From: Acholeplasmataceae bacterium
GTDB lineage: Bacteria; Bacillota_I; Bacilli_A; Acholeplasmatales; Acholeplasmataceae
Direction of reading: 5' to 3'
DNA: 64,000 bases
Assembly: GCA_030603805.1 (NCBI GenBank)
Contig: JAUVXD010000001.1
Location: 253,518 to 317,517 of the forward strand
Of the stretch, positions 40,008-52,044 are shown one piece after another (position 1 is the stretch's first letter; each line of letters opens with the position of its first letter). The notes below the pieces were generated by a model. The model worked only from the letters and a program-made list of their open reading frames with translations, was not told where the DNA came from and made no database searches. Position numbers and translations under genes: made by a program.

Positions 40008-40206
40008 AACGAGGATACTCCTTTTTTTCTAGCTTCATTAAGAATGTATCGATTTGTTCTTTTGAGAATCGCCATTTTTCTGCGATCTTTTTTCCTTTAA
40101 GCATGCCATTAAGGACATACTTGTAAATTGTTCTTGGAGATACCTTCAAAAGATCTGCTATTTCTTTAACGCTATAATGTTCTAATTCGTTTTTGTTTTC
40201 TATCAT
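39997..40206 (-). CDS. Excisionase-like helix-turn-helix protein
   Basis: 69 residues. LEHYSVKEIADLLKVSPRT, then YKYVLNGMLKGKKIAEKWRF and SKEQIDTFL, is the MerR-like/excisionase helix-turn-helix (HTH_17) with its wing. It overlaps the integrase stop by ATGA, so it is coupled to it and probably directs integration versus excision, or regulates the operon. Small HTH_17 proteins can also be plain regulators. Confidence 0.78.
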   Translation of the reverse strand: MIENKNELEHYSVKEIADLLKVSPRTIYKYVLNGMLKGKKIAEKWRFSKEQIDTFLMKLEKKEYPRYVK

Positions 40207-41147
40207 GTTTTATCATTTTCCTTCTTTAATATATAGTCTCTAATTCTAAATTCTGAATCGTCATCGATTCTATTGATGTTATGCGCATAAATCAGTGTCG
40301 TTTCAATGTTTTTATGTCGTAGGAGTTGTTGGGTTGCTTCTAGGGTACCACCGCTTTTAAGGTTGAAATAAGCGGTGGTATGTCTTAGAGAATGAACGGT
40401 TTGCTTCGGGTTATGGATACCAGCTTTTCTCATGATGCGTCTTAATGAAGTTCTAAGACTACTTGTAGTCAGTTGATTTAAACTGTTTTTCTCATGAGAG
40501 ACAAAGATATATTTGTTCTTATCGTTTCTTAAGTGTAAATACTCATTAATCGCATCCGTTACTTCAATCGGAAGTTTTACAAATGTATCACTACCATCTT
40601 TGCCTTTCCCTTGAATATATAGGATTGAATGATGATCCATCCTAGATAAATCTTGTTTTCTTGCTCTGACGACTTCTATGGTTCTCATACCTGTTGTAAG
40701 CATCAATAAGATAATGGCATAGTTTCTAATCCCATAAATGTTTTTAGCATCTCTTTTAGCAACTTCAATTAAGTTTCTTGCTTGTTCTAGACTTAAAGGT
40801 TCTTTCTTATAATTACGATCAATTCTAGCGCCTTTGATCCCTTCAGCAATATTATGGTGATAGATCTCTTCAAATCCAAAGTTCTTATAGTTAATCTTTA
40901 GCCATAAATAAAATGCTCTAATCACTACGATTTGTTTTTGAATGGTATTGGCTTTTAATCCTTCTTCCCACATCGATTCTCGGTATTTAATAAGATCAGC
41001 TCTTTTGGCGTATCTGATGTTATGGCTTCTTAAATACGAGAGATAGCGTTTCATCAGTTCTGCATAACTCCTGATACTTACTTGTTTCATATCGAGATTA
41101 TCTATATAGGCTTTTATGGGTTCTTCTAAGGGATGGTTTTTAATCAT
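40203..41147 (-). CDS. Tyrosine recombinase/integrase
   Basis: 314 residues. The N-terminal SAM-like core-binding domain (SIRSYAELMKRYLSYLRSHN) is followed by a catalytic domain with the full set of residues: Arg in TTGMRTIEVVRA, Lys in IQGKGKDGSD, HSLRHTTAYF, LLRHKNIETTLIYAH with the nucleophile tyrosine. It should integrate and excise the mobile module. It overlaps the upstream XRE gene by ATGA. No tRNA or obvious attachment duplication is visible; weak candidate repeats are reported under findings. Confidence 0.93.
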   Translation of the reverse strand: MIKNHPLEEPIKAYIDNLDMKQVSIRSYAELMKRYLSYLRSHNIRYAKRADLIKYRESMWEEGLKANTIQKQIVVIRAFYLWLKINYKNFGFEEIYHHNIAEGIKGARIDRNYKKEPLSLEQARNLIEVAKRDAKNIYGIRNYAIILLMLTTGMRTIEVVRARKQDLSRMDHHSILYIQGKGKDGSDTFVKLPIEVTDAINEYLHLRNDKNKYIFVSHEKNSLNQLTTSSLRTSLRRIMRKAGIHNPKQTVHSLRHTTAYFNLKSGGTLEATQQLLRHKNIETTLIYAHNINRIDDDSEFRIRDYILKKENDKT

Positions 41148-41377
41148 ATCTTAAATCCTTTTTTATATTCATTTTCTAGATCCAAGACATCTTCTAATGA
41201 AATCTTTAAAAGGGTTGCTATTTTATGTGCTGTTGCTAGTGTCATCTTATCTCCCTTCTTACCTTTTTCTAATAAGTTATAATAGTTTCTTGATACACCT
41301 AGCTCTTCTGCCATGGTATGCAAAGATTTTTTGTTTTGTTTCCTGTGTTTCAATAAATATGTTCTAATCATGTTCAT
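41144..41377 (-). CDS. XRE-family HTH protein at the head of the integrase operon
   Basis: 77 residues, a single lambda-repressor-type helix-turn-helix (LKHRKQNKKSLHTMAEELGV, SRNYYNLLEKGKKGDKMTL). Start ATG 41377, with an alternative ATG two codons later; no strong SD is visible. It is divergent from the repressor-like gene at 42048 and probably regulates the integrase operon. Confidence 0.78.
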   Translation of the reverse strand: MNMIRTYLLKHRKQNKKSLHTMAEELGVSRNYYNLLEKGKKGDKMTLATAHKIATLLKISLEDVLDLENEYKKGFKI

Positions 41378-42047
41378 TGGGGCTTAGCCCTTTTATCCTT
41401 TCATCTTTTTATCACTTTACTTTTCTTTGACTTTACTTTGTCTAAAAATGGCCAATTTTTAGTCTGATTTTCATTAAAATCAATAAACAAAAAAGTCGAT
41501 TTACATCAACTATGCATTCATTCTGATGGGGAATTGTTGAAACCATATCAAACCTATTGTTGAAAGTATCAAGACACTTTCAAACACATTCTTGAACACG
41601 GAGTAGATTCTTAGACGAGACATGTCTTTGGTGAAGATCATGAACGAATCAAGAACTGATTGGTATTTAAAATGAAGGTTGACTGGATACCCAATCAGAC
41701 TTAAGCACAGTAATTTGAGCTCAACTCTATTCTAACAACTAGCTATCTAATCATTTTGAGATTCTTTAAAATCGTATCTTTATCTACATATGTGTCTATG
41801 TTGTTGAAATGCCCAAACTGCTTTCTCTCTCACGCAGTTAAGCCATTATGAGAATGAAGATTCAAAGCGATGACATAAGAAATACAGCCATAAATGGGGT
41901 TTAGCCAAAATCACGAAATATCGCCTATCTCATTTATAGCCACGCTTAAATATCAAAAAATCGACATTTCATCTCTTTTATCTGTCCATTTATAAACATT
42001 TTCGTTATAATGGGGTTTGTGTATACCATCTCTAGGAGGTAATTACG
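41378..42047. other. Divergent intergenic control region of the mobile module
   Basis: 670 bases without a gene between the divergent XRE gene and the repressor. It contains a hairpin TTGAAAGT (41560-41567) / ACTTTCAA (41576-41583), the palindromic block ACGAGACATGTCT (41615-41627) followed by GGTGAAGATC (41630-41639), and the repressor promoter. The two blocks recur in reversed order after the repressor gene (42930-42957). Confidence 0.55.
41983..42011 (+). promoter_or_regulatory. Promoter of the repressor-like gene
   Basis: A perfect TATAAT (42006-42011), a 17-bp spacer and a weak TGTCCA -35 (41983-41988). The gene has a consensus AGGAGGT ribosome site before ATG 42048. Confidence 0.6.
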
Positions 42048-42914
42048 ATGAAAAAGAACTTTAACTTGGCTGAAGAAGATTACGGTTTAGGTGATCAAAC
42101 CAAGCAAATGGTAGGAAGAATGCTTGAAAAAAGAGAAATCAAACTATCTTCTGATCATCCCCATGTCGGTCGTAATATAAGAAACAGACATCAAATGTCC
42201 CAAGAAGATTTATATGAAGCCTTAAATGGTGCTTTTAGTCTTAACTCCATTAAGAACTATGAGAAAGGTCTAAGACCTGCACCTGTTAAATATCTTCTAC
42301 TGCTTGCTGAATACTATAATGTCAGTCTAGAATCCTTAATTGATCATTCACCATTCACCAAGATCAATCATGAACCAATTCCTACGAAGCTCTATGAGTA
42401 TGTCAATCATGAATCTGTTATTACAACTCCAAAAGAAAACATTGATTATAACTTAAAAGAAAATATCGACCAAAATCATCATCAATATATCTATTACATC
42501 TTATCTGAAGATGACAATACCTTAAATCTACCATGGGGTACAAGATTACTTGTTAAACTTAAATCAAATGAACAGATCCCAGTGACTGATACTGAACAAC
42601 TCTATGTCATTAAATTAAACAAAGAAAATCATCCAGATTATGGATACAACTATCAAGCATCTGATGATAAAGACCCATCTAAAGCACATTTACGAACTGG
42701 TGATAAAGTCATCATCACCAGAGCAAAACTCGCTTCAGACATTAAAAATGCGAAGTATGTGGTCTATTATGATGGGAAGTATATTAGACATATGTCCTAC
42801 CGGAATTTCTTAGATGCCATTGATGGTGTCGTCATTAAAATCATCTTTGAACAATTTTTATACAATAAAGAACGAAATACCATCCCTGGGGTATTTCCAA
42901 AGAAAAGAAAATAA
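42048..42914 (+). CDS. CI-like repressor, XRE HTH domain
   Basis: 288 residues. Residues 40-95 hold an HTH (GRNIRNRHQMSQEDLYEALN, SLNSIKNYEKGLRPAP, LLLLAEYYNVSLESLID). The C-terminal 150 residues (PWGTRLLVKL, HLRTGDKVIITRAKL) could be the S24/LexA-type effector domain of phage repressors, but I cannot point to the catalytic Ser-Lys pair, so autocleavage is unproven. It has its own promoter, a strong SD and a strong terminator. It most likely keeps the integrase and serine-recombinase functions in check. Confidence 0.72.
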   Translation: MKKNFNLAEEDYGLGDQTKQMVGRMLEKREIKLSSDHPHVGRNIRNRHQMSQEDLYEALNGAFSLNSIKNYEKGLRPAPVKYLLLLAEYYNVSLESLIDHSPFTKINHEPIPTKLYEYVNHESVITTPKENIDYNLKENIDQNHHQYIYYILSEDDNTLNLPWGTRLLVKLKSNEQIPVTDTEQLYVIKLNKENHPDYGYNYQASDDKDPSKAHLRTGDKVIITRAKLASDIKNAKYVVYYDGKYIRHMSYRNFLDAIDGVVIKIIFEQFLYNKERNTIPGVFPKKRK

Positions 42915-42942
42915 GTTATACTAACAATCGGTGAAGATCTAA

Positions 42943-42991
42943 AAACGAGACATGTCTCTCCTCTATGTTGAGGAGCTTGTCTCGTTTTTTT
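42943..42991 (+). terminator. Rho-independent terminator after the repressor-like gene
   Basis: A nested stem: AACGAGACA (42944-42952) pairs with TGTCTCGTT (42978-42986) around an inner CTCCTC/GAGGAG hairpin, followed by a T-run. The outer left arm is part of the ACGAGACATGTCT block also found at 41615. Confidence 0.85.
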
Positions 42992-43031
42992 CATATTTAT
43001 TGCCTATTAACCCTAAAGCATAGACTATGAC

Positions 43032-43060
43032 TTGCTATAGATAGCCTTACCAGGTAATAT
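43032..43060 (+). promoter_or_regulatory. Promoter of the tandem serine recombinases
   Basis: TTGCTA (43032-43037), a 17-bp spacer and TAATAT (43055-43060), 46 bases before ATG 43106, which is preceded by AAGGAG. Confidence 0.65.
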
Positions 43061-43105
43061 GTCACATAACAAAAAGATTGTAAAAATATAAAGGAGATTT
43101 TCACC

Positions 43106-44803
43106 ATGCACATGTCAGTAGAAATTATCGAACCAAAACCTAAGTTTAAAAATCATGAAACCGATCAAATCATCAGAAAGAAACGCGTAGCAGCTTATGC
43201 ACGTGTCTCAACTGACGAAACCGACCAATTACACTCTTATCAAACACAGATTGAAGAATTTACAACCAGAATCCAAAAAAATGAAGAATGGGATTTTGCA
43301 GGTATGTTCTGTGATGAAGGCATCACAGGCACAGATATGCGTAAAAGACCAGGCTTTATGCAAATGATTGAAGCATCTAAAAATGGACACATCGATTTAA
43401 TTCTAACCAAATCCATTTCAAGATTCTCAAGAAATACGATTGACATCTTAACCGTCATTAAAGAATTAAGGACCATTGGTGTTGAAATCTATTTTGAAAA
43501 GGAATCGATGTCTTCTACTGACCCTAAGATAGACTTTGTTTTAACCATTATGTCATCGATGGCTCAAGAAGAATCTAGATCCATAAGCGAAAACACAAAA
43601 TGGGGGATTCAAAAGAGATTCCAAAATGGGAAGTTACTGATGAATACCAAATGGTTCTTGGGCTTTGATAAAGATGAAAAAGGGAATCTTGTGATTAACG
43701 AGGAACAAGCTAAAACAGTTAGATACATCTTTGATATGTATTTACGAGGATTAAATACCAATGCACTTGCTAATCACTTAATTGAACATAAGATTAAAAA
43801 TGGTAGAGGAAATGTCACCTGGTATGCCGATACCGTTAAAGAGATTTTAAAGAATGAAAAGTATGTCGGAGACCTTATGCTTCAAAAGACAGTGACACTG
43901 GATTATTTAAGTCATCGAACCGTTGATAATGATGGGCATGCGACGAAGTATTACATCAAAGATGCACATGAACCTATCATTGATAGAGAAACCTTTGATA
44001 TCGTTCAAACGATGCTTCATGCAAGAGATATTGTCTTACTTGAAGATAATATGGAACGCTATAAACACTTAGCTCAAAAACCCATCAAAGGATTAGTATA
44101 TTGTTCTAAGTGTAAAAGAATGTACCGGTCTAAAATGCATAACTCTGGTACGACATTTAAGAAGAGCATGCTTAAATGTCATACCTTAATCAATAATCCC
44201 CATGCTTGTGATAATCCATCGATTCATGAACCCTTCTTAGAAAGAGGAACTCTTCATGTGATTGAAACTTTAACAAAGACAGATCAGATGCAACAAGACA
44301 TCTTAGCCTATATGAAAGAAATCCTAGAACATACGAATTCACATGAACCTTTAAAAGCATTAAAGCAAGAAAGTCGAATGATAACCAATGCCCTCAAGGC
44401 ACTTCCTAAACAAAGACTTCATTCTACCATGACTGACAAGGAGTACAATAGCGAATATTCACGTTTAAATCGTCTTTATGAAGAAATCAAACTCAAGATA
44501 GAAGATTTAAAACAAAAGATTACTAAAGAGCATTTAATGCGTCGTAGATACTATGCATTAAATGCCTTTATAGAAACAAACTATCAAGATTTATCTATCA
44601 TTAAAAGCTTCTTCGGTTTGATTTTAATCATGGGTAAGAATCATGTACGGTATGTGATTGATGATACATTCTCGATTATTGATGACCTTCATCAAGATAT
44701 CGATAAGATCAATCAATTACCAACTATTTTAAATGGCACTTATTTCGATTTACAAACTAAAGAAAATCTATACTACGAGGTCATTATCTATGAAAGAAAT
44801 TAA
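43106..44803 (+). CDS. Large serine recombinase, first of a tandem pair
   Basis: 565 residues. The resolvase-type catalytic domain has VAAYARVSTDETDQLHSYQ with the nucleophile serine, DEGITGTDMRKRPGF and SISRFSRNTIDIL. A recombinase domain (FDMYLRGLNTNALANHL, WYADTVKEILKNEKYVGD) follows, then a zinc ribbon with paired cysteines (YCSKCKRMYRS, MLKCHTL) and a coiled-coil C-terminus. Such proteins integrate or excise mobile DNA at att sites. It overlaps the second recombinase gene by 14 bases, as in ccrA-ccrB pairs of staphylococcal cassettes, so the two may act together. Confidence 0.93.
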   Translation: MHMSVEIIEPKPKFKNHETDQIIRKKRVAAYARVSTDETDQLHSYQTQIEEFTTRIQKNEEWDFAGMFCDEGITGTDMRKRPGFMQMIEASKNGHIDLILTKSISRFSRNTIDILTVIKELRTIGVEIYFEKESMSSTDPKIDFVLTIMSSMAQEESRSISENTKWGIQKRFQNGKLLMNTKWFLGFDKDEKGNLVINEEQAKTVRYIFDMYLRGLNTNALANHLIEHKIKNGRGNVTWYADTVKEILKNEKYVGDLMLQKTVTLDYLSHRTVDNDGHATKYYIKDAHEPIIDRETFDIVQTMLHARDIVLLEDNMERYKHLAQKPIKGLVYCSKCKRMYRSKMHNSGTTFKKSMLKCHTLINNPHACDNPSIHEPFLERGTLHVIETLTKTDQMQQDILAYMKEILEHTNSHEPLKALKQESRMITNALKALPKQRLHSTMTDKEYNSEYSRLNRLYEEIKLKIEDLKQKITKEHLMRRRYYALNAFIETNYQDLSIIKSFFGLILIMGKNHVRYVIDDTFSIIDDLHQDIDKINQLPTILNGTYFDLQTKENLYYEVIIYERN

Positions 44804-46427
44804 AGTCATTGAAACCAATCCATACATTAACAACTATAATACATATAAAAGGGTTGCTGCTTATGCGAGAGTATCGACAAAGCTTGAAATGCAATCTTCT
44901 TCTTTAGCTTTACAAATCAAACATTATGCTAAAGAAATCATCTTTAATCCTGATTATATGTTCGCAGGTGTCTATGCTGATCATGGCAAATCTGGTACTT
45001 CCATGAAGTCTAGAGATGGACTTCAAGCACTCTTAAAGAAAATCTATGCCGGTCATATTGATTTAGTCTTAGTCAAATCCTTATCACGATTTGCTAGAAA
45101 CACGATTGATGCATTAACCATCATTCAAGAAACTAGAAAACTAGGTGTTGAGTTCTACTTTGAAAAAGAAAATATATCAAGTCTTGATCCTTCCATTGAT
45201 ATGATCTTTACGATGATGGCGAGCATGGCAGAGCAGGAATCAGACTCGATGTCTCAAAACATCAGTTGGAGCTTTCAAAAACAAGCTCAAAAGGGAAAAA
45301 TATCGGTTCATAAATGTATTGGCTATACACTCACTAAGGATAAACGATTAATTATTAATCCTGATGAAGCGACAATCATCAAAAATATATTTCAGATGAA
45401 ACTTGAACATAAATCAAATACAGACATTTTAGAGTATGTTAGATCAGTTGGTTTAAAAACAATCTTAGGCAATGATTTTGTACAAAACTCACAAATCATT
45501 GGCATACTTAGAGATATCAAATACACAGGACAAGTTGTATGGGGAAATACATATCGTGGTAAAAACAATAATGAGAAAGTCACATTCATCAATAATGGCG
45601 AAAGACCCAAGTATATTATTAAGAACCATCATGAAGCAATTATTGATATAGATACTTATCATGCAGTTCAAGCATTAATTAAAGTAAAGAAAAATGATCA
45701 TCCATTAGTAAAAAACGCCTCAGGTTGGGCTAATCGTTTTGTCTATTCATTGATGCATGAAAAATATCTCCATGTGAAACAAAAAATTAAAGATAACCCT
45801 AAGTATGATCTGCTAGAAAATGAAAAAGCAAGAAAATCAAGCTCTCCGCGCATTTACTCAAGAAATGCTACTCATGTCCTAAGGAAAGCAACCATCGCCT
45901 TAGCACGCAATTTTAGCGACTTAGAAGCAAAGTTTGATAAGCAAGTCAAAGACCATTTAGATACAAGTCATTTAGATAAACAAATGGAGAAAATAGCTGA
46001 AAAGATTAGACGTTATAAAAAAGAATACTTCATTTTAAAGCAGAAACCAGAACTTGATGAAGCTGAACAAAGTTTGATTTATGAACTTGAAGAAACAGTA
46101 ATTAAGTTAAGTATTCAGTATATTAAAATTGAAGATGAAACAATCCCTTTTATTGATAAGCTAAAACGAATCAAAGATATTAAGAAAGCTATTTCTTCTA
46201 TTGAGTTACCTATGGATGAATTACCAATTGATTCTATTAAGGAGATTTTCTATGTTATGGTAGTTAAAGATCCTAAAAGTTATTTTCTTGTTATCAATGT
46301 AAGTGGTAAAAAGTTAGAGGGTGAATCGTTAAAAAAAGTAACGGAGATTAAACCGTTACTTGAGAGCGTTTGTAAGTCAAGAACAAAAGATATTGGTATA
46401 TTAACCTGGAAAATAATAATATTTTAA
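44790..46427 (+). CDS. Large serine recombinase lacking a zinc ribbon, second of the pair
   Basis: 545 residues from ATG 44790 (MKEIKVIETNP), with GAGG before it; in-frame upstream codons lie inside the first recombinase. The catalytic serine is in VAAYARVSTKLEMQSSSL; SLSRFARNTIDALTI and IFTMMASMAEQESDSM match the first protein. The region equivalent to the zinc ribbon (WANRFVYSLMHEKYLHVK) has lost its cysteines. A coiled-coil stretch follows. Loss of the ribbon suggests a division of labour with the first protein, or a degenerating partner. The stop codon overlaps that of the convergent gene at 46424. Confidence 0.9.
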   Translation: MKEIKVIETNPYINNYNTYKRVAAYARVSTKLEMQSSSLALQIKHYAKEIIFNPDYMFAGVYADHGKSGTSMKSRDGLQALLKKIYAGHIDLVLVKSLSRFARNTIDALTIIQETRKLGVEFYFEKENISSLDPSIDMIFTMMASMAEQESDSMSQNISWSFQKQAQKGKISVHKCIGYTLTKDKRLIINPDEATIIKNIFQMKLEHKSNTDILEYVRSVGLKTILGNDFVQNSQIIGILRDIKYTGQVVWGNTYRGKNNNEKVTFINNGERPKYIIKNHHEAIIDIDTYHAVQALIKVKKNDHPLVKNASGWANRFVYSLMHEKYLHVKQKIKDNPKYDLLENEKARKSSSPRIYSRNATHVLRKATIALARNFSDLEAKFDKQVKDHLDTSHLDKQMEKIAEKIRRYKKEYFILKQKPELDEAEQSLIYELEETVIKLSIQYIKIEDETIPFIDKLKRIKDIKKAISSIELPMDELPIDSIKEIFYVMVVKDPKSYFLVINVSGKKLEGESLKKVTEIKPLLESVCKSRTKDIGILTWKIIIF

Positions 46428-47278
46428 TTCTTTTTTACATTTATAACTGCTAATTTAAAATTTGGTAGATCTTTTGAAGCGATTATCGCATTGATATCTT
46501 GACTTCTACTAATGCTTAGTTTTTGTCTTAATTTTAAAATATCATCAACACTTGAAAATTCACATTCGTTATTTCTTATTGCATCCTCGACAAGAGATAA
46601 AACATAATCAGAAATATATGGCGATGATGCAACAATTGGTTCACCTATTTTAAGTGCCTTTATACTCTGCTCGAAGTAAACTAAATCAGGACACGATTCA
46701 ATTTCAAGGTAACCTTTTATTTTTCTTGTATTAAGTGGTATACCGTTAAATAAAAATTTCTTGGGTTTATTGCTACTGTAATCGAGGTTTGTATATAATT
46801 CAGTCGTATGCATCAGATTCATTATTGAGTAATCCATATTAATCAAGCCTAGAGAATCTGTATAAAATACGCCCAGTGAACCTATCGAATCCAATATTCT
46901 ACCGCTAAAAATAGTGCTTGGTATAAAAATTGATTTATTCTTTGCCTTTATTATTGGAAAATTCCCCAACAAATAATGTTGTCTGAGTGGAATACTTATT
47001 TCACCATTGGGTAAGTAAGTTGAAGAATACGCTTTTTTATTTTGCAAATAAGTAAATCTTGCTTCATTTTCGTCATAAACAAAAATCAATAAATCTGCAA
47101 TTTCACAAGATATTTCTTCTGTTATATCAAGTGGATTATTAAATTTCATTTGATATTTTGTACCATGGACGTTCATGACATCAGCAAATGTTTTAAAAGA
47201 TTTTTGTAATGCTTTAAATAAATCCACTTCACCAGATGATGTTTTAGCATGTTTTTGAATCTCAACATACAAGCTCAT
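46424..47278 (-). CDS. Unknown protein at the end of the toxin-antitoxin/RT operon, possible PD-(D/E)XK-like nuclease
   Basis: 284 residues, no signal peptide or membrane segment. I do not recognise a named family. Around residues 55-83 there is an E...E-x2-D pattern in EISCEIADLLIFV, then YLQNKKA. An acidic strand followed by Q-x-K is the arrangement of some PD-(D/E)XK nuclease cores (D62, Q79, K81), so a nuclease fold is a testable guess. The rest contains FPIIKAKNKSIFIPSTIF and GSLGVFYTDSLG. It follows the reverse transcriptase gene by 30 bases, has AGGAGG before its ATG, and should be co-transcribed with the whole operon. Confidence 0.55.
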   Translation of the reverse strand: MSLYVEIQKHAKTSSGEVDLFKALQKSFKTFADVMNVHGTKYQMKFNNPLDITEEISCEIADLLIFVYDENEARFTYLQNKKAYSSTYLPNGEISIPLRQHYLLGNFPIIKAKNKSIFIPSTIFSGRILDSIGSLGVFYTDSLGLINMDYSIMNLMHTTELYTNLDYSSNKPKKFLFNGIPLNTRKIKGYLEIESCPDLVYFEQSIKALKIGEPIVASSPYISDYVLSLVEDAIRNNECEFSSVDDILKLRQKLSISRSQDINAIIASKDLPNFKLAVINVKKN

Positions 47279-47308
47279 TCATTGTCCTCCTATTTCTTCT
47301 ATCAATAC

Positions 47309-48916
47309 CTATTTTAACAATTTTAAGTTTTTATCACTGCAGATGTGTTTAACTAAAACATCATTGGTGTTATTTATAACATCTTTGAAAAAGGCTCTTT
47401 TTTCTCCAGTTTCAAGATTAATATTAACTAATCTTAATATTTGCCGCTTTTCCCAAATATCTGCTCTTTCATAATATTTTTTTAGCTCAATAACATCATT
47501 TCTAAATAAAGTTTCTTTTAAACCGTCTAAATAAGCTCTACCAACATATATGCCAGAATTTCTTTTTAAGTTTTTAAATGAACTCAAAATCAAATCAGTA
47601 TTTGTGAATCTACCACTACTAAATAGTCTAGTCAAATAAACATGAGTATATTCTAAAAGTTCTTCTTGCTTCATCCAATCACCGAGTACATTCTTAATAT
47701 TTCCTACAACATCATCTGAGATATCTTTTTCATTTTTTATTAACACATCTGTTATATATGGTAGGAACTGAGGAAATTTTTTAACAATCTTTACAAGATC
47801 ATATAGGTTATCAAATAATCCATTTGCAACAATGGCTTTTGAAAGTTCAATAATGTCATTGGGTTTCACTAGAATTGCAGTTGTCATTTCTTTGATTTTT
47901 TCTTTTATATCATATGTTGCATATTTTGTAATTTCGTTTTTTGTCAAGTTCCTAAATTTGGTTGGTATTAAACCGGAATATCCTCTGATTACATTTGGAA
48001 CACCAAACTGATGCTCATCAAAGATAGTTTTCTCAACTTTAGAATCTTTTGATTTTGTTTTTACATCTTTAATAGGTTCTCTAACATTGGTTTTATTTGT
48101 ATTAATAAAAAGTCCCACATCGTTAAGTTTTTGAACTAACAGTGACAAGTGCTTTTGAGCTGTATATGCATCTTTTGCAAATATTCGATAGTCGTCTACA
48201 AATCTACAAAAATCAATCCCATTTGACTTCAAAAAATCATCCACTTCACTTAACAAAGACTCTGCCAGAATTCTAGATCCATTTGAACCTACAGGTAAGC
48301 CATATGAATCTCTGTTGCTCCAAAATAATAAAATTTCATTGAGGAGTTTAACCAGTTCTTTATCTATACCATTTAGAGATAACAGATTAGACTCAAGTCT
48401 ATGTAGGTTCAACCTATCATAGAAGTTAGAGATATCGGTTTCAACAACTACATTGACTCTAGGGCTTTTAGATTTTTTTGAGATATGCTCTCTAAAACTT
48501 GTAAAGTTATATTTATCATCAAACAATAAACTTTTGTGTGGCTTATACCTATAAGAAAAAACAACTTTTTCACTTTTGTTTATTCTATTTTTTTCAATTA
48601 CTGGAGCCATTATTAAGACTATTGATAAAAACATTACTTCGTCAACGAAATCAATTAAGGCACATTTTCTGAAAGCGAAAAACGCTTTTTTAGGAACTAG
48701 TACTGAACCTATTTTTTTCATTTTTAATTGTTTAAAATCATAGGAACCATCAGATTTTTTGGTTAAAGCATTATCAATAAAGTCAATAACTTCCTTTTTT
48801 ACTTCATCCTTGGCCAATAGTTTAAGCTCAAAGAAGTCTCCAAATAGGTCCACATCAGTAGTACCATATTTAGCTACATTATTGTATGCTTCTGTAATAA
48901 ACTTTCTATAGCTCAT
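47309..48916 (-). CDS. Reverse transcriptase of Abi/UG (defence-associated) type
   Basis: 535 residues. The RT palm has motif A ETDISNFYDRL (D161), GLPVGSNGSRILAE (206-219) and the catalytic CRFVDDYRIFA (D241, D242), then GLFINTNKTN. FVDD rather than YADD, with no maturase X or endonuclease domain and no intron structure around it, points to Abi/UG-type RTs. From about residue 310 to the end the protein is all helical, resembling HEAT-like repeats found at the C-terminus of AbiA/AbiK-class enzymes. The subfamily (DRT type) cannot be assigned by eye. It lies 36 bases after the SecB-like gene, with GGGAG before its ATG. Confidence 0.85.
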   Translation of the reverse strand: MSYRKFITEAYNNVAKYGTTDVDLFGDFFELKLLAKDEVKKEVIDFIDNALTKKSDGSYDFKQLKMKKIGSVLVPKKAFFAFRKCALIDFVDEVMFLSIVLIMAPVIEKNRINKSEKVVFSYRYKPHKSLLFDDKYNFTSFREHISKKSKSPRVNVVVETDISNFYDRLNLHRLESNLLSLNGIDKELVKLLNEILLFWSNRDSYGLPVGSNGSRILAESLLSEVDDFLKSNGIDFCRFVDDYRIFAKDAYTAQKHLSLLVQKLNDVGLFINTNKTNVREPIKDVKTKSKDSKVEKTIFDEHQFGVPNVIRGYSGLIPTKFRNLTKNEITKYATYDIKEKIKEMTTAILVKPNDIIELSKAIVANGLFDNLYDLVKIVKKFPQFLPYITDVLIKNEKDISDDVVGNIKNVLGDWMKQEELLEYTHVYLTRLFSSGRFTNTDLILSSFKNLKRNSGIYVGRAYLDGLKETLFRNDVIELKKYYERADIWEKRQILRLVNINLETGEKRAFFKDVINNTNDVLVKHICSDKNLKLLK

Positions 48917-48952
48917 ATATCATAATCTCCCATCGTAAAACTTGGTCAAAAA

Positions 48953-49354
48953 TCAATTAAATAGCTTTGATATGTTCATAATTGGCAACATATAAGGCGG
49001 TACATTACCATTCATTGTTACTGTTGCCGTTAGAGTTCTTAGATATGGAAACATAATTGCTGTTGCAGTATTTACTGCAATACTATTTGCTGCTTCACTT
49101 TCCCAATTTGGTAGCTCAAAAACAGAAGAAATGACTACTTCTGCATTAAACGGAATAGGTCCTTTATTGATCTCTTTAGAAATCTTAATTCCAAGTGTGA
49201 TTTTATAATGTTGATCATCAATTTTCACAATATCTCTATTAAATGATGGTTGGATGTCAATCTTGCCGTTCTTAAACTCAAATGCTTCATTCAATTCGAA
49301 TGTTGTTTTTAATACTTTGTAATTTAATAACTTCATTTCACTAGCACCCGTCAT
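48953..49354 (-). CDS. SecB-like chaperone of a toxin-antitoxin-chaperone module
   Basis: 133 residues from ATG 49354 (MTGASEMKLLNYKVLK), which has GGAGG eight bases before it and overlaps the antitoxin stop by 14 bases; the upstream in-frame codons lie inside the antitoxin gene. The C-terminal part (NTATAIMFPYLRTLTATVTM, PPYMLPIMNI) is the SecB signature. General SecB export chaperones are proteobacterial, so in a low-GC Gram-positive-type genome, next to an MqsR/MqsA pair, this is best read as a TAC chaperone that folds and protects the antitoxin. Confidence 0.85.
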   Translation of the reverse strand: MTGASEMKLLNYKVLKTTFELNEAFEFKNGKIDIQPSFNRDIVKIDDQHYKITLGIKISKEINKGPIPFNAEVVISSVFELPNWESEAANSIAVNTATAIMFPYLRTLTATVTMNGNVPPYMLPIMNISKLFN

Positions 49355-49895
49355 AGGTAAGACCTCCATTTGAAGGAATGGTTGTAGTATATGAAAAACT
49401 ACACGGTTCCTCGTATTCATATTTTGTTTCAGGTAATACTTTAGTAAAGAATCTTGATGCAATCTTTGCATTTTCAGTTTCGGTAAGTTCTTCCTTGTTC
49501 ATAACCCATAGAGCATAAAAATTGTCCTCAATATCAACGAGTCTTAATAGGTTATCGTGTGTATTATCTTGAATTGATCCATTTTCATATCTTGTTATGG
49601 TTTTAATTCCAAAACCCATGATTTTTGAAAATGTCGCTTGAGAAAGGTTATACTTTTCTCTTATTCTAATAACCTCTTTTGATGTTAATAAGTTATGTTT
49701 TTTCTTATAGGCATCAAATAATAGAATATCGTTACTTATTTCGATATCTTTGTCATAGATTTCCTCATGACAATGTGAGCAATATAAAATGGTGATTTCA
49801 GCCGAAACTTTGGTCTTCTTGATCTCGTATTCTCTAACTTCTTTTCTTTCTATGACATCGTGCATTGCTTCACAATTTCCACAATATTTTCTCAT
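49341..49895 (-). CDS. mqsA: MqsA-like antitoxin with zinc finger, HTH and C-terminal tail
   Basis: 184 residues. Four cysteines (C5, C8, C39, C42) form the YgiT/MqsA zinc-binding domain that in MqsA binds the toxin. Residues 71-122 are an XRE-type helix-turn-helix (EVIRIREKYNLSQATFSKIM, GIKTITRYENGS). The last 45 residues are an extra tail rich in aromatic and hydrophobic residues (TKYEYEEPCSFSYTTT), in the position of the chaperone-addiction sequence of TAC antitoxins. It is expected to neutralise the toxin and repress the operon. SD AGGAGG; the toxin gene ends 16 bases upstream. Confidence 0.88.
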   Translation of the reverse strand: MRKYCGNCEAMHDVIERKEVREYEIKKTKVSAEITILYCSHCHEEIYDKDIEISNDILLFDAYKKKHNLLTSKEVIRIREKYNLSQATFSKIMGFGIKTITRYENGSIQDNTHDNLLRLVDIEDNFYALWVMNKEELTETENAKIASRFFTKVLPETKYEYEEPCSFSYTTTIPSNGGLTYDGC

Positions 49896-49911
49896 TTTCT
49901 AATATCCTCCT

Positions 49912-50247
49912 CTAGTCTAGCACCATATGATCAATATGACAGCTTAGACACCTAATTACAGTAATTCCTTCTACGATGATTTTTTCTTTCAACTTGATAT
50001 AAAGCACATGTCCTTTATAATCATGTTTGAAAATCCATACCATGCCTGTCCTCGCAGGGTCTTTATCTTTTGATGGACCACTATGATACTCATTCACGCT
50101 AAGATTCCTCACAAGATTTTCTTGATCGTAAGCAGTTAACCCAATTTGGAGTCTAGTACGGCGATTTTTTTCTGTTGGGACAAAGTCAATCATATCTGCA
50201 TTCTTTACATCATGCAGAAATCGTTTGATTTCAAATTCATCAGCCAT
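49912..50247 (-). CDS. mqsR: MqsR-family toxin, probable mRNA interferase
   Basis: 111 residues from ATG 50247 (MADEFEIKRFLHDVKNA), with AAAGGGGG six bases upstream; the in-frame ATG at 50271 lies in the operator and is not used. Family pattern: an N-terminal helix, LTAYDQENLVRNLSVNEYHS, GMVWIFKHDY and GHVLYIKLKEK, as in the RelE-like fold of MqsR, which cuts mRNA independently of ribosomes. Homology is moderate and active residues cannot be confirmed by eye. It is the first gene of the operon, the usual order for mqsR-mqsA, and is followed by the antitoxin and SecB-like genes. Confidence 0.8.
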   Translation of the reverse strand: MADEFEIKRFLHDVKNADMIDFVPTEKNRRTRLQIGLTAYDQENLVRNLSVNEYHSGPSKDKDPARTGMVWIFKHDYKGHVLYIKLKEKIIVEGITVIRCLSCHIDHMVLD

Positions 50248-50264
50248 ATTATACCCCCTTTTTA

Positions 50265-50278
50265 GTATCATGTGATAC
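50265..50278. promoter_or_regulatory. Palindromic operator of the toxin-antitoxin/RT operon
   Basis: GTATCA-TG-TGATAC, perfect six-base arms, placed directly downstream of the -10 at the predicted transcription start. A site for the MqsA-like HTH protein would sit exactly here to repress the operon. Binding is inferred. Confidence 0.7.
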
Positions 50279-50279
50279 C

Positions 50280-50308
50280 ATTATACATCTAAAAATGCAT
50301 TAAAACAA
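50280..50308 (-). promoter_or_regulatory. Promoter of the mqsR-mqsA-secB-RT operon
   Basis: Minus-strand TTGTTT (50308-50303), a 17-bp spacer and a perfect TATAAT (50285-50280), 33 bases before the toxin ATG. No other promoter of this quality is seen between 50280 and 46424, so the five genes probably share this transcript. Confidence 0.75.
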
Positions 50309-50928
50309 TTGAAAATGCGAATTTTCTACTACTTATTAGAATTATTAGAGTATTAATGGGATCCATGCGTAGTTTAACCTGTATAAAAAAATACATATAA
50401 GAGGGCTTTTTTACTTCCTCTTTGTTGGCTTTAGTAAGATATCAAGTGAATTATTCTTTGGGTTGATAAAGTATCAAATTGGATAATCCATTAAAAAACG
50501 TTAAAAAAGACAAGAATTCATCTTGCCTTATTGAAAATTGTCTAGTTTTCATGTATAGAGTGACACACTTTTCATAAGGACATACATAAGACAGACAGTC
50601 ACACCTTAAGGGTCAGCGTGACGCCATCCTGAAATCGCGACTGTCTGTTGTTATGAAAGTCATGCTGTGGGATTGTCTTTCCTGTGTCATCCTTATGAAA
50701 TTTTAAAAAAAGACACTTTTTTTGATTGCTTAAATTTACCAGCTGTTGATACACTTATTGGCTTAGTTATCTATCTAAAAATTTCAGATTATTTTACCAC
50801 CCACAGATGGTAAAAAGTTTGGCACCATACTGCAACCGTGACTGTCTGTTGTTATGAAAGTCATGCTCTAGGACTGTCTTTCTTGTGATACCTTAGGCAC
50901 ATCATTAATATCTTTATTGAATATGGTA
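50309..50928. other. Intergenic region right of the defence operon
   Basis: About 620 bases without a gene. It contains AT-rich sequence to about 50560 and then two tandem copies of the dispersed ~195-bp repeat (listed separately) that reach almost to the stop codon of the next gene. Confidence 0.6.
50585..50895. repeat. Dispersed ~195-bp repeat, copies B1 and B2 in tandem
   Basis: The block GACTGTCTGTTG...AAAGTCATGCT occurs at 50639-50666 and, identical over 28 bases, at 50840-50867, giving a period of 201 bases. Before both copies is a diverged CGCCATCCTGAAA/CACCATACTGCAA block. B1 continues into TGTGTCATCCTTATGAAA (50683-50700), identical in copy A. ACAGACAGTC (50591-50600) and GACTGTCTGT (50639-50648) are perfect inverted repeats, extended by CATAA/TTATG, so B1 can fold into a long hairpin. 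Confidence 0.8.
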
Positions 50929-52044
50929 TTAGTGAGCCTTAAAATTTGGATTTTTATTACTTATAAGTTTTAAAAGAGATGATTTAAATCCTAGTGGCCA
51001 TTCATTAGTTAAACTCATATTAACAAAAAGATGATCAAAGGGTTCGTATTCAATCTCAGTAAGCCAATTCTTGTAAAATCTATATTCATTATGATTATTA
51101 TTTTTCATGATTTCTCTAAAAGATTGATATCCTGGAATACCTCCTACATCTTCAGGAATATTTTCTCCTTCAAAATGTGGACATAATGTCTTAATAGGTT
51201 CTTTTTGATGAATAGACATCCTACAAAAGATTTGATGCTTCCAATCATCTCCAAAGTCATATGTATAAACCCATTCATCAAATGTATCGAATGCTTCATC
51301 TAAAGAAATGGACATTGAATTTAATGAGTGCTCGAAACCATCAATATCATCATATAAGGGGGTGTAAGATTTATTATTCTTTAAATTAATAAATTCGTGG
51401 AGATGCATGTTCTTCCAACCAAATACCTTTTGTATGACTACATGCAAATCATCAAGTGTATAGTAATTCGGGACGATAACTCTTCTCATGACATTTTCAT
51501 TTTCTAAATCAATTGTAATATCTAATTCATAACCTATATGAGATGAAGTGACATCAAGAAGTGTTTGGATCAGTTCTTCCATAAGCTCTCTAGGTGTCTT
51601 ATAACCAACACCAAGCATTTGATTAACTCTGTGTGATGTTATTTTTTGAAAAACATCACCTATATTGATATGATCCAGAAAACCATATGCTGAGAATTTT
51701 CTTTGGGTGGTATTTGAGATGATTGATCTGTTATTGGTTTTTCCAAAAGAAACTGATCCTTGGTGCTCTATAAATGCATCTGCAGCAGTTTGGGTAAACC
51801 CATCGAATATTAACGCTTTCTTTAAACTTTCTTTGAAATAAAGTTCTATATTTTTCAAATGCTTTGTTTTTAGACCATAGAAAATCAGGGTATAAGATGT
51901 TGTAACATGTGTAAAGACAAATAATCTCTTCTTATCATAAAACTCAACAGTAACATGCCACATACGTTCATCTTTTTCTGGATAATTAGTCAAACTACCA
52001 ACATGAAATAGTTCTTGGGCTTTTTTTGTTAAACATAAAATCAT
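50929..52044 (-). CDS. DUF6933-pRiA4b ORF-3-like fusion protein
   Basis: 371 residues. The N-terminal 150 residues (MILCLTKKAQELFHVG, WHVTVEFYDKKRLFVFTHVT) look like the DUF6933 domain. From about 185 on the protein matches the plasmid pRiA4b ORF-3 family (LHVVIQKVFGWKNMHLHEF, WVYTYDFGDDWKHQIF, DVGGIPGYQSFREIM), often carried on plasmids and transposable elements, with no established function. SD GTGAGGT. It follows the 169-residue gene by 15 bases, so the two form an operon. Dispersed repeat B2 ends near its stop codon. Confidence 0.78.
   Translation of the reverse strand: MILCLTKKAQELFHVGSLTNYPEKDERMWHVTVEFYDKKRLFVFTHVTTSYTLIFYGLKTKHLKNIELYFKESLKKALIFDGFTQTAADAFIEHQGSVSFGKTNNRSIISNTTQRKFSAYGFLDHINIGDVFQKITSHRVNQMLGVGYKTPRELMEELIQTLLDVTSSHIGYELDITIDLENENVMRRVIVPNYYTLDDLHVVIQKVFGWKNMHLHEFINLKNNKSYTPLYDDIDGFEHSLNSMSISLDEAFDTFDEWVYTYDFGDDWKHQIFCRMSIHQKEPIKTLCPHFEGENIPEDVGGIPGYQSFREIMKNNNHNEYRFYKNWLTEIEYEPFDHLFVNMSLTNEWPLGFKSSLLKLISNKNPNFKAH

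Follow-up and report, generated by a model that had tools for sequence, protein, structure and literature searches.

A candidate PD-(D/E)XK-type nuclease of an unnamed family behind a Drt8-type reverse transcriptase in an Acholeplasmataceae genome

What does the gene lying immediately behind a defence-type reverse transcriptase (RT) of an Acholeplasmataceae bacterium encode, and is its product a partner of that RT? The gene, here called P0001, is harbored by a stretch of 64,000 nucleotides (nt) of contig JAUVXD010000001.1 (assembly GCA_030603805.1, positions 253,518 to 317,517), which is the window to which the coordinates below refer. A first-pass annotation of this DNA had described the open reading frame (ORF) 46424-47278 as an unrecognised RT-associated protein with a possible nuclease core, and had proposed it as a candidate effector of the RT. 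An intact ORF of 284 codons does occupy this interval; however, the coding strand is the minus one, and on the plus strand the interval is closed by stops. The residues on which the nuclease core had been based (E55, E59, D62, Q79 and K81) were found at those positions of the P0001 protein. With moderate confidence, we regard P0001 as a PD-(D/E)XK-type nuclease of a rare unnamed family, representing an exchangeable defence module rather than a dedicated partner of the RT.

Conserved residues of P0001 and its homologues

The gene and the codons discussed in this section are the following:

46424..47278, minus strand: P0001, intact 284-amino-acid (aa) ORF; its PD-(D/E)XK-like product belongs to an undescribed family
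47228..47230, minus strand: codon E17, candidate motif I, invariant in the four sequences
47036..47104, minus strand: core block E59-x-A-D62-L-L ... L-Q79-N-K81, candidate motifs II and III, with E59, D62, Q79 and K81 invariant
47102-47104, minus strand: codon E59
47093-47095, minus strand: codon D62
47042-47044, minus strand: codon Q79
47036-47038, minus strand: codon K81
46979..46981, minus strand: codon Q100, candidate motif IV (RQHYLL block), invariant in the four sequences
46336..46361, minus strand: terminator-like hairpin, just past the P0001 stop

P0001 starts with an ATG preceded at 7 nt by the Shine-Dalgarno sequence AGGAGG, and its third-position base composition resembles that of the neighbouring genes. 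Terminator-like hairpins occur at four sites of the region, against 1.4 expected.

Homologues were collected by a whole-genome search with the P0001 protein and then with successively larger profiles. Three clear ones were recovered, sharing 24-33% identity with P0001 in the four-sequence alignment: the first belongs to the same family as the genome of the window (L002/L044; 39% over about 208 aa, E 3.6e-31), the second shares its class with an Aedoeadaptatus genome (L047/L049; E 1.5e-22) and the third comes from the same order as the second (L052/L053; E 3.4e-15). The alignment contains 27 invariant columns, in which the charged or amide residues are E17, H38, E59, D62, Q79, K81, Q100 and E192. 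Hence four of the five residues highlighted previously are invariant in the four proteins, whereas E55 varies. Only 6 of the 68 charged residues of P0001 are invariant, and three of them are found among the four charged residues that had been picked (hypergeometric p about 0.0015); if Q and N are also counted, the proportion of picked residues that are invariant is 4/5 (p about 1e-4), both values being computed on four sequences and to be read as indicative rather than as a formal test.

In the PD-(D/E)XK superfamily, motif I is an acidic residue of the first helix, motif II (xDxxx) lies in the second strand, motif III, that is (D/E)xK with its variants, in the third strand, and motif IV is a polar residue of the second helix (PMC1913061); PD-QXK is an attested variant of the Mrr type (PMC11037411). 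In P0001 and its homologues, D62 sits in an ADLL or GDLL context, and the QxK follows the aspartate of the hydrophobic xDLL after 17-19 residues in all four sequences, as expected for motifs II and III. The assignment of D62, Q79 and K81 to these motifs is supported by their invariance in four diverged homologues. Moreover, E17, A/G-D62-L-L, Q79-x-K81 and Q100 match the order of motifs I to IV, and therefore the claim of a nuclease-like core can be maintained at the level of the motifs, E17 likely being motif I in place of E55. The order and spacing of E, xDLL, QxK and Q liken P0001 to the QxK variants of the superfamily, such as the Mrr catalytic domain, from which it differs in that its sequence detectably matches no named family. 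TnsA, with an E/D/QxK active site, was weighed as a possible further analogue. The DNA pattern for E-x-A-D-L, 14 residues, L-Q-x-K occurs once in the window and never in 100 shuffles; as it was built from P0001 itself, this indicates just that the motif is not a common one.

Several observations weigh against the assignment of P0001 to a nuclease module of defence loci. The protein did not match Pfam, NCBIfam or PADLOC at E values up to 10, nor, in any meaningful way, PHROGs or the PDB sequences, and thus gave no profile match to a nuclease family in these collections. Single-sequence AlphaFold2 gave no usable model, with a predicted local distance difference test (pLDDT) score of 32.4 for the full protein and 43.0 for residues 8-142, and the best Foldseek hit obtained with the latter model (pLDDT 43.0) had an E value of 0.29, which is not significant. 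Furthermore, the conservation argument is built on four sequences, and two of the four family members (L049 and L053) adjoin no recognised defence gene. The low-confidence models place a helix at residues 20-37 and strands at about 65-69, 74-79 and 82-88 (pLDDT below 60), with no helix at Q100; the modelled helix and strands are compatible with a PD-(D/E)XK core, at a confidence too low to count. As regards the databases, new PD-(D/E)XK families usually escape sequence-based searches (PMC1913061).

According to a first alternative, P0001 is not a nuclease at all, and the polar residues conserved in it belong to another fold or are needed for nucleic-acid binding alone. The low confidence of the models, the shortness of the catalytic pattern and the presence of a Q where an acidic residue is usual would fit this idea. 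However, within the first 100 aa the polar residues that are invariant follow the PD-(D/E)XK order, with xDLL and then QxK in 4/4 proteins, and we consider the alternative unlikely. The nuclease core proposed by the first-pass annotation is therefore retained as a conserved motif (D62, Q79 and K81, to which E17 and Q100 are to be added), not as a fold or a family match, and the family of P0001 is probably a new one in an established superfamily.

By sequence comparison, P0001 belongs to a protein family that is rare and as yet unnamed. It was detected in 2 of the 88 genomes of the family to which the bacterium belongs. A survey of the phylum reported a P0001-like match in 5/392 genomes, three of the five being due to chance, and no P0001-like gene appeared in 299 and 128 genomes of two other phyla, where the search was run without a positive control. 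Searches of viral, phage and plasmid sequences with P0001 and its homologues gave no match. The candidates that were discarded comprise the proteins retrieved with the motif pattern from viral contigs, all unrelated, and the weak genome matches L003, L012, L013, L014 and L048, which are due to chance or out of frame and for none of which the four-sequence profile gives an in-frame score. The family is absent from the curated libraries searched, and giving it a name would help to annotate other defence loci, such as that of L044 described below.

P0001 and the reverse transcriptase

The RT, previously described as being of the Abi type, is a defence-type enzyme that PADLOC identifies more precisely as Drt8:

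47309..48916, minus strand: Drt8-type RT of 535 aa (PADLOC), with intact FVDD and D-x3-F motifs and without a fused nuclease

The match covers residues 5-522 of the 535 (E 3.7e-114), the next-best RT family in PADLOC being RT_UG21 (1.1e-41); the Drt8 model counts 493 positions against the 535 aa of the RT, which leaves no space for a fused nuclease. The polymerase motifs D161...F165 and V-D-D 240-242 are intact, and they are invariant in nine relatives. We take the PADLOC name Drt8 to correspond to RT group UG7. P0001 lies downstream of the RT on the same strand, 30 nt from its stop.

In the literature, a PD-(D/E)XK domain is named as characteristic of DRT8 (PMC12596737, introduction), and one table pairs a Cap17 (SLOG/PNP) effector with it (PMC10952713). 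On this basis, P0001 might supply the nuclease of a DRT8-type system, in which the RT makes DNA or senses the infection and unleashes the nuclease. This possibility is in agreement with the Drt8 assignment, with the domain reported for DRT8 in the face of an RT that here lacks a fused nuclease, and with the position of P0001, 30 nt after the RT and provided with its own Shine-Dalgarno sequence, any likeness of P0001 to the DRT8 nuclease being drawn from the literature description. Against it, PADLOC does not match P0001, although the presence of a DRT8 nuclease model in PADLOC is unconfirmed.

The comparative analysis does not support such a pairing. Close relatives of the RT were identified in ten genomes (42-51% identity). 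The P0001 profiles matched none of the ORFs of these ten loci, where flank exists (in L016 and L023 the RT is followed by just a few hundred bases), and the two-sequence P0001 profile, a coarse tool that may miss distant members, found no P0001-like gene elsewhere in the same genomes. Two distant RTs, one from Caballeronia and one from a phage-like contig, were likewise without a P0001-like neighbour. The genes downstream of the RT relatives vary from genome to genome. In three Aedoeadaptatus/Peptoniphilus genomes (L018, L019 and L020) a SIR2-domain gene (ThsA/PDC-S25-like) lies 108-142 nt downstream of the RT, the Merdibacter relative is followed by large multi-gene neighbours, the Faecalicatena one by a LacI-type regulator and the Listeria one (L024) by a dehydrogenase-like gene. 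In L018 and L019 the SIR2 position is reduced to an ORF of 129 aa. A viral contig (L056) also carries a Drt8-like RT at its edge (1-1305), with filamentous-phage-like genes on the opposite strand.

The reciprocal comparison gave the same picture, as none of the three P0001 homologues (L044, L049 and L053) lies beside an RT. The one of L044 overlaps the end of a gene for a 480-aa FRG (E 6e-20) and RNase III-like protein, which PADLOC recognises as the phage-defence candidate PDC-S15 (E 1.2e-56); that of L049 stands alone among divergent genes; that of L053 is preceded, at a distance of about 590 nt, by three small ORFs in the same direction, which lack a family match except for one marginally LeoBC-like. 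PDC-S15 and the overlapping homologue (L044, 7922-10251) might constitute a two-gene defence unit.

On this evidence, obtained from a small sample in which some loci are truncated, the RT usually stands alone and has no conserved partner in P0001. The label "RT-associated" is thus appropriate in this genome, but not for the other homologues, and the suggested check on D62, Q79 and K81 in RT-adjacent homologues found no further case to apply to, since no other homologue recovered adjoins an RT. The idea that P0001 is the effector of the RT is weakened because their linkage was not seen elsewhere, and a DRT8-type system of RT and nuclease appears rather improbable to us. These data also recommend caution in calling each RT-adjacent gene the effector of that RT. 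Nevertheless, given that the mechanism of DRT8 is not established (PMC13213688), a probable nuclease behind a Drt8-type RT offers a concrete, mutable test of the need for a nuclease.

At the opposite extreme, P0001 might belong to a mobile or defence island as an independent gene, placed behind the RT by chance and acting alone. Indeed, the homologues of L049 and L053 share no partner, the RT relatives seem to stand alone and their flanks vary (e.g., in Listeria L024), and the locus borders on two serine recombinases and on an MqsRAC-like cassette, described below. However, the 30-nt spacing and the direction shared with the RT, together with the overlap between the L044 homologue and the FRG gene, suggest more than chance, which makes a purely fortuitous position doubtful.

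The interpretation that we favour, an exchangeable nuclease module, lies between these two. Two of the four family members directly follow a defence gene, namely the Drt8-type RT in the window and the FRG/PDC-S15 gene in L044, and the close packing of the genes in the window, with the terminator-like hairpin behind P0001, also speaks for this interpretation. P0001 would be a metal-dependent nuclease, with E17 as motif I, D62 as motif II, Q79-x-K81 as motif III and Q100 as motif IV, and it would act as a DNA-cutting module exchanged between defence loci and not dedicated to the RT. A plausible course of events is that a neighbour senses the infection and that P0001 then cleaves phage or host DNA. 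The presence of a P0001-type gene also at an FRG locus would not be without precedent, because the exchange of nucleases among unrelated defence systems, including DRT, has been established for another nuclease type (PMC12799240). The likeness consists in one nuclease family standing beside unrelated genes, here the Drt8-type RT and the FRG/RNase III gene. The modules described in that work are metallo-beta-lactamase (MBL)-fold nucleases paired with proteases, whereas the P0001 locus is without a protease.

The five-gene run and its surroundings

The RT is preceded by three further genes in the same direction, and P0001 is met on the other side by a recombinase:

49912..50271, minus strand: weakly MqsR-like toxin candidate, 119 aa (111 aa from the ATG at 50247), E 0.011
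49341..49895, minus strand: MqsA-family antitoxin with a C-terminal extension, NCBIfam TIGR03830, 1.4e-28
48953..49363, minus strand: SecB-like chaperone, MqsC-like, start approximate as the open frame reaches 49471; Pfam E 2.4e-13, PADLOC PD-T4-9_C 3.5e-17
44733..46427, plus strand: large serine recombinase, convergent with P0001, their stop codons overlapping

The five co-directional genes (MqsR-like, MqsA, SecB-like, Drt8-type RT and P0001) are separated by gaps of 30, 36 and 16 nt or overlap. Their co-transcription is plausible because of the shared direction, the gaps of 16-36 nt or overlap, and a TATAAT-like box before the first gene; being the last gene of this run, P0001 would probably be made together with the RT.

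The MqsRAC toxin-antitoxin-chaperone (TAC) system protects against T2 (PMC9519451). The trio of the window resembles it in having a weak MqsR, an MqsA and a SecB-like chaperone in the matching order, MqsA and the SecB-like protein being above the cut-off and MqsR (E 0.011) below it; it differs in being followed by the RT and P0001 in the same direction, a composite that was not seen at the other RT loci. A reading of the whole run (50271-46424) as a single composite defence operon, where an MqsRAC-type toxin-antitoxin-chaperone module controls or cooperates with the Drt8-type RT and the PD-(D/E)XK-like nuclease, seems to us very improbable.

Before the trio, a TATAAT-like box followed by GTATCA...TGATAC half-sites (50260-50290) forms a candidate autoregulatory operator. 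Upstream of the operon, in DNA without long ORFs, a 68-nt direct repeat (50619-50686 and 50820-50887, 85% identical) has inverted elements nearby. A search of Rfam over 41000-52000 found no RNA. On the other side of P0001, the defence genes are adjoined by two adjacent large serine recombinases (43106-46427, plus strand), and a tyrosine-recombinase-like ORF (40203-41147, minus strand) lies near them; the recombinases at 40203-46427 suggest an integrative element or an insertion hot spot.
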